Source: Roseomonas sp.
GTDB taxonomy: Bacteria > Pseudomonadota > Alphaproteobacteria > Acetobacterales > Acetobacteraceae
Direction: 5' to 3'
NCBI GenBank assembly: GCA_020249925.1
Contig: JADCER010000004.1
Location: 62,001 to 126,000, forward strand
DNA length: 64,000 bases
A program made the translations under genes and the position numbers. Positions 2,922 to 21,301 of the stretch are shown here, one piece after another. The stretch's first letter is position 1; every line of letters starts with the position of its first letter. The notes under the pieces are model-generated. The model did not search any database. It saw only the letters and a program-made list of their open reading frames with translations, and was not told the DNA's origin.

Positions 2922-2930
2922 GTGCTATCG

Positions 2931-3024
2931 GAAGGTCGGCGGCGGACGGGCTCCTCGCCAACCCGGTCAGGTCCGGAAGGAAGCAGCCGTAACGGGTTCT
3001 TGCTCGGGTCGCTTGTCGGCCTTC
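2931..3024 (+). ncRNA. ffs: 4.5S signal recognition particle RNA (bacterial small SRP RNA)
   Basis: The apical domain is unmistakable: GGTCAGGTCCGGAAGGAAGC followed by AGCCGTAACGG contains the GGAA tetraloop and the asymmetric internal loop that Ffh binds. The 5' end GAAGGTCGGC pairs with the 3' end GTCGGCCTTC to close a single rod about 94 nt long. It guides Ffh to nascent membrane proteins. Placement directly before dnaX is the usual arrangement in many Alphaproteobacteria. Confidence 0.95.
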
Positions 3025-3072
3025 CACCGCGCGCCCGCGCGATCATCGCGACAGGAAAGACCGCCCCGCGCC

Positions 3073-16773: not shown

Positions 16774-19503
<2,730 letters not shown>

Positions 19504-19535
19504 ACCCGCATGCGGGGCGTGGCGACAGATTCGCG

Positions 19536-19565
19536 TTGACAGGTCTTCAGCCGCGACACTAGGCT
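19536..19565 (+). promoter_or_regulatory. promoter for the arginine-type leader and GNAT-argC pair
   Basis: TTGACA (19536-19541) is a perfect -35 hexamer. TAGGCT (19560-19565) is a usable -10 with an 18-base spacer. Transcription would begin close to 19572-19573, at or next to the ATG of the leader peptide, so that mRNA would be leaderless or nearly so. Confidence 0.55.
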
Positions 19566-19572
19566 TTGTTCC

Positions 19573-19683
19573 ATGATTGGAACTTGCCGCCGCATCGCTA
19601 ACCGACGCCGTCGCTGCTTCTCAGCGGCGGCTTCTGTAGCTGCGTGCAGACAAGCCCCTCCCAAGGTGAGGTCCGCCCTGTAG
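19573..19683 (+). CDS. arginine-rich leader peptide (attenuator peptide)
   Basis: A 36-codon reading frame, too short for most gene callers, starting MIGTCRRIANRRRRCF and ending KVRSAL. Codons 6-7 and 11-14 are six Arg codons within nine residues (CGC, CGC, CGA, CGC, CGT, CGC), and two further Arg codons (AGA, AGG) follow. It sits between a TTGACA promoter and a T-rich terminator hairpin that precedes GNAT-argC. That is the arrangement of an amino-acid attenuator, in which ribosome stalling at scarce arginyl-tRNA changes RNA folding. An AGG nine bases before the ATG could be a weak ribosome site. Confidence 0.65.
   Translation: MIGTCRRIANRRRRCFSAAASVAACRQAPPKVRSAL
19586..19631 (+). promoter_or_regulatory. 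attenuator stem 1:2 overlapping the Arg codons
   Basis: GCCGCCGC (19586-19593) pairs perfectly with GCGGCGGC (19624-19631). The left arm contains leader codons 6-7 (Arg-Arg) and the loop contains the four-Arg run, so the position of the ribosome would control whether this stem forms. Downstream, CCGC at 19673-19676 can pair either with GCGG at 19683-19686 or, extended, with GGCGG at 19698-19702, giving alternative folds. Confidence 0.5.
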
Positions 19684-19720
19684 CGGTCCAACCCCGAGGC
19701 GGCATCAGCCCGCATCTTTG

Positions 19721-19757
19721 AACCCCCGCAGCCCCTGGCTTCGGGGGTTTTTCTTTG
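19721..19757 (+). terminator. intrinsic terminator of the GNAT-argC leader (attenuator)
   Basis: AACCCCCG (19721-19728) pairs with CGGGGGTT (19742-19749) and is followed by TTTCTTTG. It lies before the GNAT start, not after a gene, so it should end transcripts from the upstream promoter unless prevented. AACCCCGAG at 19690-19698 could compete for the right arm. Confidence 0.75.
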
Positions 19758-19778
19758 TCCAACTCGCAGGAATATCTC

Positions 19779-20327
19779 ATGCAGAATTGCAAGACCGACC
19801 ACCCCAATCCGCCACAAATATCCAAGGATGCCGGGCAGAAAACGCTGCGGCGCGCCACCACCGCTGATGTGACGATCATCCGCGACCTCGCCCGCGCGGC
19901 CTACGCGAAGTGGGTGCCCATCCTCGGGCGGGAGCCGCGACCGATGACCGCCGACTACGAGGCGGGAGTGCGCGACCACCTGATAGACCTGCTGCGTGTG
20001 GACGGCGAAGCCGTGGCGCTGATCGAAATGGCGCCTAAGGCTGACCACCTGCTGATCGTCAACGTCGCGGTGGTACCCACCCATCAGGGCTGTGGCCATG
20101 GCAGCGCGCTGATGGCGCATGCGGAGGAAGTCGCCCGCTCTCTCAACCTGCGCAAGATGCGGCTCTACACCAACGCGCGATTTGCCGAGAATCTCCGACT
20201 CTACGGCAGGCTCGGCTATCGGGTTGATCGTAAGGAAGAGCACCCGCAGTTCGGTGCGACCGTATACATGAGCAAGCGCCTCGACGCCGCAGGCAACGAG
20301 CAATCCAGCAATAGGAAACCATCATGA
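19779..20327 (+). CDS. GNAT-family N-acetyltransferase coupled to argC
   Basis: 182 residues from the ATG at 19779, which has AGGA seven bases upstream; an earlier TTG lies inside the terminator T-run. GNAT core: LLIVNVAVVPTHQGCGHGSALMAHAEEVAR (acetyl-CoA loop QGCGHGSA), then the YxNARFAENLRLYGRLGY motif. The stop overlaps the argC ATG (ATGA). Because of this coupling and the Arg leader, a role in arginine metabolism such as N-acetylglutamate formation is possible but unproven; the fold alone does not tell. Codons favour GAC and CTG, unlike its neighbours. Confidence 0.75.
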   Translation: MQNCKTDHPNPPQISKDAGQKTLRRATTADVTIIRDLARAAYAKWVPILGREPRPMTADYEAGVRDHLIDLLRVDGEAVALIEMAPKADHLLIVNVAVVPTHQGCGHGSALMAHAEEVARSLNLRKMRLYTNARFAENLRLYGRLGYRVDRKEEHPQFGATVYMSKRLDAAGNEQSSNRKPS

Positions 20328-21301
20328 GTATTCGCATTGGTATTGTCGGTATCAGCGGCTTTGGCGGAGGCGAAGCGATGCGCCTGGTCGCAAACCACCC
20401 GGCTTTCGAACTGGTCTACGCCGCAGGTGAAGGCAGCGCCGGCAGCCGCTTGGGGGACCGCTTCCCCGGTGCGCCAGCCAAGCTGGCCGAAATGATGATC
20501 GAGAAATGGGACCCTGCGATGCTCCCGAAGCTCGATGTGCTGTTTGCCTCACTGCCCACGGGCAGTTCCGCCGAGGCGCTGGCGCGTGTCCCCAAGGGCG
20601 TGAAGATCGTCGATATCGGCGGCGACCACCGCTATGTTGAAGGTTGGATCTATGGTTTGGCCGACATCTGGCCGGCTCAGATCGAGGGTCAGACTCGCAT
20701 TGCCAATCCCGGCTGCTTCCCTGCGGCGACGCTTACCGCGTTGGCGCCACTGCTGGCCAATAAGCTGATCGAACCCGGCAACATCGTGATTGACGCCAAG
20801 ACCGGCATCTCCGGCGCTGGTCGAGGCGGCGGCGACACTAAGTTCGGCTTTGCCGAGAGCAATGAGAACCTGGTGCCCTACGGTCTGATGAAGCACACCC
20901 ACATGCCCGAGATGGCCAGGACGATTGAGCAGCTAAGCGGCAGCAGCGCGGCCGGGCTGGTGTTTACGCCGCACCTGGTGCCGATGACCCGTGGCATACT
21001 CGCGACCATCTACTGCCGCGGTCGCACTACCACGGACCAATGCCTGGACGCGGCGCGGCGCTTCTACGACGGGCGGGCTTTTGTGCGCGTGACCGATAAG
21101 CCACCGCAGACCAAATGGGCGACCGGGTCGAACCTTTCGTTCGTTAGCTACGCAACGGACCCAGAGCGAAACTTGGTGATTGCGATGGGCGTGGTGGATA
21201 ATCTCGGCAAGGGGGCGGCAGGCCAGGCGGTACAGAATGCGAATCTGATCTGCGGCCTGCCGGAAACGGCTGGGCTGGAGGGCGTGCCTGTTTGGCCGTG
21301 A
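20324..21301 (+). CDS. argC: N-acetyl-gamma-glutamyl-phosphate reductase
   Basis: Third step of arginine synthesis, NADPH-dependent reduction of N-acetylglutamyl phosphate to the semialdehyde. The 325-residue protein has the Rossmann start IGIVGISGFGGGEAMRL, catalytic Cys in ANPGCFPAA, the KTGISGAGRGG loop and the HTHMPEM region. Translation is coupled to the GNAT gene by a 4-base overlap. Codon choice (more GAC, fewer GAT) differs from the flanking genes, so this copy may be acquired. Whether another argC exists elsewhere in the genome cannot be seen here. Confidence 0.9.
   Translation: MSIRIGIVGISGFGGGEAMRLVANHPAFELVYAAGEGSAGSRLGDRFPGAPAKLAEMMIEKWDPAMLPKLDVLFASLPTGSSAEALARVPKGVKIVDIGGDHRYVEGWIYGLADIWPAQIEGQTRIANPGCFPAATLTALAPLLANKLIEPGNIVIDAKTGISGAGRGGGDTKFGFAESNENLVPYGLMKHTHMPEMARTIEQLSGSSAAGLVFTPHLVPMTRGILATIYCRGRTTTDQCLDAARRFYDGRAFVRVTDKPPQTKWATGSNLSFVSYATDPERNLVIAMGVVDNLGKGAAGQAVQNANLICGLPETAGLEGVPVWP

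Follow-up and report, generated by a model that had tools for sequence, protein, structure and literature searches.

The leader between secA and a GNAT-argC gene pair of this Roseomonas sp. is best explained, with a probability that we put at about 0.88, as a ribosome-mediated transcription attenuator that would sense charged tRNA-Arg and control an accessory argC operon. Comparison of related sequences and folding models establishes the anatomy of this leader, its reading frame, its alternative pairings and, within the models, the dependence of these pairings on the position of the ribosome. As predicted from them, the element would work like a classical amino-acid attenuator, its unusual feature being the target, an accessory argC.

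The leader and its genes in the Roseomonas window

The features below all lie within the window, by which we mean the whole stretch of 64,000 nucleotides that was analysed.

19536..19541, + strand: -35 element TTGACA, read in the sequence; the TTGAC layout recurs in relatives
19560..19565, + strand: candidate -10 element TAGGCT, 3/6 to consensus, placed by its spacing
19573..19683, + strand: putatively leaderless leader-peptide ORF of 36 codons, MIGTCRRIANRRRRCFSAAASVAACRQAPPKVRSAL, with stop codon TAG at 19681-19683
19603..19614, + strand: Arg-codon run CGA CGC CGT CGC (codons 11-14), the predicted ribosome stall site
19607..19616, + strand: segment 1, 5' arm of the 1:2 hairpin over Arg codons (fold; pair counts)
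19622..19631, + strand: segment 2, 3' arm of the 1:2 hairpin (folds; pair counts)
19641..19647, + strand: TGCGTGC, strand of a conserved middle helix, partner of GCCCGCA at 19708-19714 (alignment pair counts)
19708..19714, + strand: GCCCGCA, the other strand of the middle helix, partner of 19641-19647 (alignment pair counts)
19721..19729, + strand: segment 3, terminator 5' arm AACCCCCGC, antiterminator partner of GCGGCGG (folds)
19721..19756, + strand: intrinsic terminator AACCCCCG/CGGGGGTT, with inner AGCC/GGCT and then a T-rich tract (sequence, scan, fold)
19779..20327, + strand: GNAT acetyltransferase gene, the first past the terminator (Pfam; AGGA at 19768-19771)
20324..21301, + strand: accessory argC, N-acetyl-gamma-glutamyl-phosphate reductase (TIGR01850)

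The consensus -35 element announced by the first-pass annotation is readily found downstream of the end of secA (19503), and the 36-codon frame with its ATG at the predicted start of transcription is equally present, the ATG at 19573 sitting 37 nt from the first base of TTGACA. The sigma-70 scan output for the window does not list a promoter at TTGACA 19536, and TAGGCT is a weak -10 candidate. The ORF has Arg at codons 6, 7 and 11-14 and two further Arg codons outside this cluster, so that the six Arg residues claimed within RRIANRRRR are there. A T-rich terminator just before a coupled GNAT-argC pair had also been claimed and is borne out, with a terminator scan core at 19730-19749 and the start of argC overlapping the stop of the GNAT gene through ATGA at 20324. 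A bacterial small signal recognition particle RNA (55.5 bits) is located in another part of the window, at 2930-3028 on the + strand.

The ArgC protein of the window scores 287.7 bits against TIGR01850 (NCBIfam cut-off 233.6), and two further matches to it exist in the source genome, one on contig C8 (31% identical) and one on C24 (29% over 169 residues). The C8 protein reaches 376 bits against TIGR01851 (cut-off 229.85) and 156.7 bits against TIGR01850 (cut-off 233.6). Judged by these scores, the argC of the window is an accessory second copy of the TIGR01850 type beside a TIGR01851-type argC. Closely related ArgC proteins, defined by at least 80% identity with gene pieces included, occur in 43 of 394 Acetobacteraceae genomes, all of which have at least two ArgC matches among the matches listed, although a few of them owe the additional match to a further piece of this close type. 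A covariance model of the leader finds in the source genome the leader of the window only, its other match (E 0.05) being the opposite strand of the same terminator.

In the proposed mechanism, the A of the leader ATG would be the transcription start or lie close to it, and translation of the leaderless ORF would follow at once. When Arg-tRNA is plentiful, ribosomes would pass the Arg run and segment 2 would be covered or re-paired with segment 1, segment 3 would then be free, the terminator would form and transcription would end near 19756. Under a shortage of charged Arg-tRNA, a ribosome would be expected to pause with its A site on one of the Arg codons of the run, covering segment 1 and leaving segment 2 free; the GCGGCGG at 19624-19630, which lies within segment 2 and doubles as the antiterminator strand, would pair with CCCCCGC in the terminator 5' arm, so that no terminator would form and GNAT and argC would be transcribed. 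It is in this sense that we infer a response of the attenuator to arginine.

Conservation, reading frame and distribution of the leader

The same layout was found in 75 distinct leaders from Acetobacteraceae, from a second alphaproteobacterial family (probably Methylobacteriaceae, judged by a plasmid relative) and from an Agrobacterium plasmid. These leaders were gathered without regard to frame, with a pattern that required CGA as the first codon of the run, and they share descent, so that counts over them are not independent. A start codon lies 35-38 nt from TTGAC in 73 of the 75, and at exactly 37 nt in 60, a distance that suits a leaderless message; the two leaders without such a pair are L167 and L169. 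All 73 detected starts are in frame with the Arg cluster, at a distance of 30 nt in 41 leaders, 27 nt in 31 and 33 nt in one, and six of the 73 shift frame on the way from the cluster to segment 2. Because the stem could be read in any of three frames, the fact that the Arg frame is always the one used suggests that the codons are under selection, with the reservation that these are 73 related leaders and not 73 independent events.

Four or five consecutive Arg codons are present in 67 of the 73 leaders and fewer in the remaining six, in ORFs of 29-41 residues (52 leaders). The counterparts of codons 11-14 encode Arg in 49, 49, 50 and 45 of 50 leaders, whereas Arg6 and Arg7 have Arg counterparts in only 8/50 and 29/50, which leaves codons 11-14 as the conserved part of the RRIANRRRR cluster claimed. 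A supposed constancy of CGA at the first place of the run was discarded as biased, given that the search pattern demanded CGA, and L177 has Gly there. CGG is absent from the Arg runs (0/306 codons), which is partly forced by the stem and by the pattern. The leader of the Ti plasmid of Agrobacterium leguminum (L064, 2775-2922), placed before argC, has two Arg codons and a shortened 1:2 region and retains the terminator and antiterminator strands.

Relatives of the GNAT protein at 1e-20 are found in 163 of 397 genomes of the family sample and at 29 loci in public genomes, many of them titled Roseomonas or Acetobacteraceae, and in 62 loci the leader pattern occurs 26 times, if repeats of the same sequence are counted. 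The covariance model, which was built from 19 leaders and run with strict filters that may lose weak cases, matched 46 of 394 Acetobacteraceae genomes at E 1e-3, 40 of these below 1e-7. The six genomes between both thresholds were excluded from the leader count; in one of them, G351, the pattern search finds no leader in the fetched locus. Leaders below 1e-7 were present in 37 of the 43 genomes with a close ArgC versus 3 of the 351 without it. In the second family 31 of 75 genomes match the model, while wider samples yielded 5 of 385 genomes for the class at 1e-4, three of them real and one of these the window's own, and 3 of 249 for the phylum, where the window's own is the only real match. 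The matches in G577, G735 and G1019 (E 6e-5 to 8e-5), which belong to other families, were rejected as terminator-like sequences without a leader, and the phage records searched gave no match to the leader. A second, partial match was seen in G750 (L104, C1 2590599-2590687, E 7e-5), without the usual start or terminator; it overlaps a short fragment resembling argC (48% over 65 residues) and looks like a remnant of the accessory module. With the Arg cluster, the frame, the antiterminator and the terminator conserved in dozens of species, the comparison of homologous leaders proposed in the first pass came out in favour of the attenuator.

The genes that follow the leader were surveyed at 30 separate loci of the family (31 fetched rows minus the opposite-strand row of the window's own leader). 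The leader stands directly before argC in 19, before GNAT and then argC in seven, before another gene and then argC in one, and before GNAT only in three, so that a non-housekeeping argC follows it in 27 of 30. The three genomes with a leader but no close ArgC are G052, G108 and G206 (67% complete), and in each of them the leader precedes GNAT. In the second family argC comes right after the leader in all 20 fetched loci, taken from the 31 positive genomes, and plasmids of Roseomonas haemaphysalidis, Methylobacterium aquaticum and Agrobacterium leguminum (Ti) carry the leader directly before argC and without GNAT. Because of these plasmid leaders, the partner of the leader is, as far as gene order tells, argC, with GNAT as an optional middle gene. 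No leader was found in the 330 nt before argC on two Paracoccus plasmids and one from Paraburkholderia, nor in the 350 nt of readable upstream DNA of a close accessory argC in G007, G174, G179 and G388 (L152-L155); in G010 and G239, also with a close ArgC and no leader, argC is present only as pieces at or near contig starts.

Some loci depart from these arrangements. Three leaders occur in G359 (L105, L106), two before GNAT and one before argC, which suggests a small arginine-responsive regulon. In L122 (G347) a different middle gene, whose start presumably resembles an NTF2/SnoaL-like protein, replaces GNAT between leader and argC, and in L121 (G266) about 800 nt separate GNAT and argC, which overlap in the window. 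As for the GNAT protein itself, a role as N-acetylglutamate synthase was not supported, known synthases appearing at E ~1 only; three homologues on Pantoea and Sphingomonas plasmids (of 13 records) were set aside, being in other contexts and without argC; and PADLOC gave no match for GNAT or ArgC.

Alternative structures and the position of the ribosome

In folds of the free RNA, segment 1 (19607-19616) pairs with segment 2 (19622-19631), and the left arm of this stem covers three Arg codons instead of the two originally assigned to it. The antiterminator was analysed in transcripts ending just before the terminator 3' arm. In this pre-terminator RNA, masking of the Arg codons gave antiterminators of more than 2 nt in 49 of 52 leaders, compared with 0 of 52 with the codons free, the three other masked leaders not passing 2 nt; the ribosome-at-stop condition of this comparison can by its design give nothing but zero and does not count as a test. 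The alternative downstream pairings that had been claimed are thus recovered in the models, with GCGGCGG pairing to the terminator 5' arm. At a threshold of more than 3 nt, the antiterminator appeared with masked Arg codons in 48 of 52 real leaders, in 75 of 312 (24%) when the stretch between the strands was shuffled, and in 17 of 312 (5%) when everything was shuffled. The recurrence in 75 sequences and these shuffled controls show that the leader architecture is more than chance.

A closer approximation to translation was obtained with an explicit ribosome footprint slid codon by codon along 50 leaders, the two frame-changed leaders set aside and the stop codons covered. When codons -8 to -4, counted from segment 2, occupied the A site, more than 3 nt of antiterminator were formed in 16, 30, 34, 23 and 13 of the 50 leaders, so that even the two best codons reach this threshold in just 30/50 and 34/50; elsewhere, stop codons included, it was formed in at most 3/50. 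Arg is encoded at -8 in 13 of 50 leaders and at -7 to -4 in 49, 49, 50 and 45. This result is partly built in, as the Arg codons form the left arm of the 1:2 stem; its informative part is that, in the models, the stall window falls on the Arg codons and does so in the right frame. When folded to equilibrium, the complete leader of the window keeps the terminator with a probability of at least 0.95 at every ribosome position tried. The proposed check by folding with a placed ribosome was answered in two ways, favourably for the pre-terminator RNA with masked Arg codons and unfavourably for the complete leader. Since the terminator wins at equilibrium, the switch must be kinetic and act during transcription, and known attenuators likewise switch while the RNA is being made.

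Pair counts over 52 leaders used structures taken from the window's own leader, a choice that favours them over slid versions. For the antiterminator, 86.7% of 2004 cells were paired, in comparison with 39-49% when slid, and 54 cells were changed on both sides versus 25.4 in shuffles; the pairs with changes on both sides numbered 13 versus 10.3 in shuffles, and 35 of 500 shuffles reached 13. For the terminated state, 95.5% of 1451 cells were paired, versus 38-49% when slid, and 8 cells were changed on both sides versus 1.8 in shuffles; the pairs with such changes were two, a number reached by 257 of 500 shuffles. The main terminator helix had 98.1% of its cells paired. In the exclusive helix GCGG/CCGC five of seven pairs are invariant, and support from covariation is found at its inner end only, where one pair fails in 15 of 52 leaders. 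The near-invariance of the outer antiterminator helix is what would be expected of strands common to two structures and leads to little covariation support; RNAalifold, applied to the 52-sequence alignment, recovered the middle helix only and not the outer antiterminator helix. In G225, which is outside the alignment, the 1:2 stem is built differently, by pairing of GCCGCAGC with GCTGCGGC.

Other explanations, known systems and the role of the accessory argC

Macrolides stall translation at Arg/Lys-X-Arg/Lys (+X+) motifs, and the Arg run fits such a motif, which brings up a drug-inducible attenuator where a ribosome-targeting drug would stall translation at the Arg-rich motif, GNAT would be the resistance enzyme and argC a passenger. 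Of the solved proteins that GNAT matches at E 0.001, an IAA acetyltransferase (1.4e-5) and a puromycin N-acetyltransferase (6e-4) are the two closest, and three genomes of the family have leader and GNAT without a close ArgC, but the resemblance of GNAT to resistance enzymes is a weak one, of a kind shared across the fold, and the usual target is argC, with GNAT often absent (argC alone in 19/30 loci; argC in 20/20 of the second family), so that we find this explanation very hard to sustain. Arginine could also be sensed by a metabolite-dependent arrest peptide, as in speF-type leaders, where the nascent peptide causes the arrest together with a bound metabolite; here the nascent peptide with ribosome-bound arginine or ornithine would stall translation. 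Such a device would suit the conservation of an Arg-rich peptide of comparable length ahead of a gene of the arginine pathway, and in Salmonella the orf34 leader already exemplifies arginine-linked control through a short ORF (PMC6386406). However, the Arg run is conserved whereas most residues ahead of it vary, six leaders shift frame right after the run, which implies that the peptide beyond it is not needed, and arrest by excess arginine would turn on a biosynthetic gene at the wrong time. Moreover, the peptide has no Pfam match at 0.001, DUF2618/speF orf34 included, a search whose sensitivity is limited by such a short peptide, and altogether we give the arrest peptide only a slight chance.

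The conserved frame also bears on a third proposal, in which the element would serve as an unregulated terminator for the upstream transcript together with a promoter, or would give rise to a small RNA or small protein acting in trans, its Arg codons being only a by-product of a GC-rich stem. The terminator is indeed strong and the hairpins stable, CGN repeats make good stems, and rnTrpL of Sinorhizobium is described as a dual-function small RNA (PMC10117765). Nevertheless, a stem readable in three frames is used in the Arg frame in 73 of 73 leaders, the frame is maintained up to the run while some leaders lose it beyond, and a plain terminator would not need the conserved long-range alternative pairing, all of which makes the by-product proposal highly improbable. 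The preferred reading is still an attenuator sensing charged tRNA-Arg, and the leader presents the characters by which this class is recognised: an ORF with an Arg run, mutually exclusive hairpins, dependence on the stall position in the models and a pathway gene downstream.

The his, trp, thr, leu, ilv and phe attenuators of Proteobacteria consist of a leader ORF with a run of cognate codons, alternative segments pairing as 1:2, 2:3 and 3:4, and an intrinsic terminator. The likeness lies in the ORF with cognate codons, the alternative segments and the intrinsic terminator before the genes, whereas here arginine would be sensed, the ORF would be leaderless and the target would be an accessory argC instead of a whole biosynthetic operon. 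In the search of Rfam suggested in the first pass, no family reached its gathering score for the leader of the window or six related loci; among the amino-acid leaders (His, Leu, Thr, Trp, Phe) the best at the leader was His_leader, with 15.6 bits versus a gathering score of 49. T-boxes bind tRNA directly and have no leader ORF, and the Rfam models gave no T-box at gathering score in the window and none up to E 10 at 19500-19800. They share with the present leader the sensing of tRNA charging for arginine genes, and are mentioned for such genes outside Actinobacteria in a survey that describes no conserved RNA structure before the arginine operons of Actinobacteria (PMC1262725). In Sinorhizobium, trpL (peTrpL, rnTrpL) is described as a leaderless ORF at the 5' end of the RNA, likewise a leaderless leader ORF of an alphaproteobacterium, but with Trp codons before trpE and 14 residues instead of the 29-41 found here (PMC10117765); leaderless messages are described as common in Caulobacter (PMC4117421). 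The nearest precedent, as described in PMC6386406, is orf34 of Salmonella speF, in which pausing at two consecutive Arg codons under low arginine alters RNA structure, RNA stability and speF expression. Both systems have a short upstream ORF with consecutive Arg codons where ribosome pausing alters (here, is predicted to alter) RNA structure. However, orf34 has two Arg codons and a Shine-Dalgarno start, and acts on an ornithine decarboxylase through RNase G sensitivity, Rho termination and translation control (PMC6386406), in contrast to the intrinsic terminator and arginine-synthesis gene of the present leader.

The main text of one broad terminator survey (PMC2965389) contains neither the word 'arginine' nor the arg gene names tried. 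Arginine-codon attenuation had been presented in the first pass as not a standard described case, a view with which our search agrees: in open-licence full texts, a body of literature outside which most subscription papers lie, no arginine-codon attenuator other than speF orf34 was found, and none that acts on the transcription of an arg gene. Judged by that literature, attenuation of transcription at arginine codons would here be seen for the first time in an arg gene. The proposal of such control over GNAT-argC holds for the conserved leader features and has to be amended for the genes, argC being an accessory copy and GNAT optional.

From plasmid carriage and its scattered distribution, the accessory argC seems to travel with its own sensor. 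A broader idea, possible though rather doubtful, is that the leader and the accessory argC, with an optional GNAT or other middle gene, make up a mobile starvation-sensor module, carried among others by plasmids and reaching Acetobacteraceae, the second alphaproteobacterial family and Agrobacterium, which would provide a starvation-inducible spare ArgC and in some cases an acetyltransferase, perhaps to protect the host from antimetabolites or from competitors that block its arginine synthesis. For several amino acids control by leader-peptide attenuation is established, and bacterial arginine synthesis is usually presented as controlled by repressors or T-boxes. If the attenuator is confirmed, a conserved Arg-codon attenuator of Alphaproteobacteria would fill a gap in arginine control and would offer a natural read-out of tRNA-Arg charging where translation is leaderless. 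It would also raise the question of why these bacteria keep a second, starvation-controlled ArgC, and why this ArgC is carried with its own sensor.
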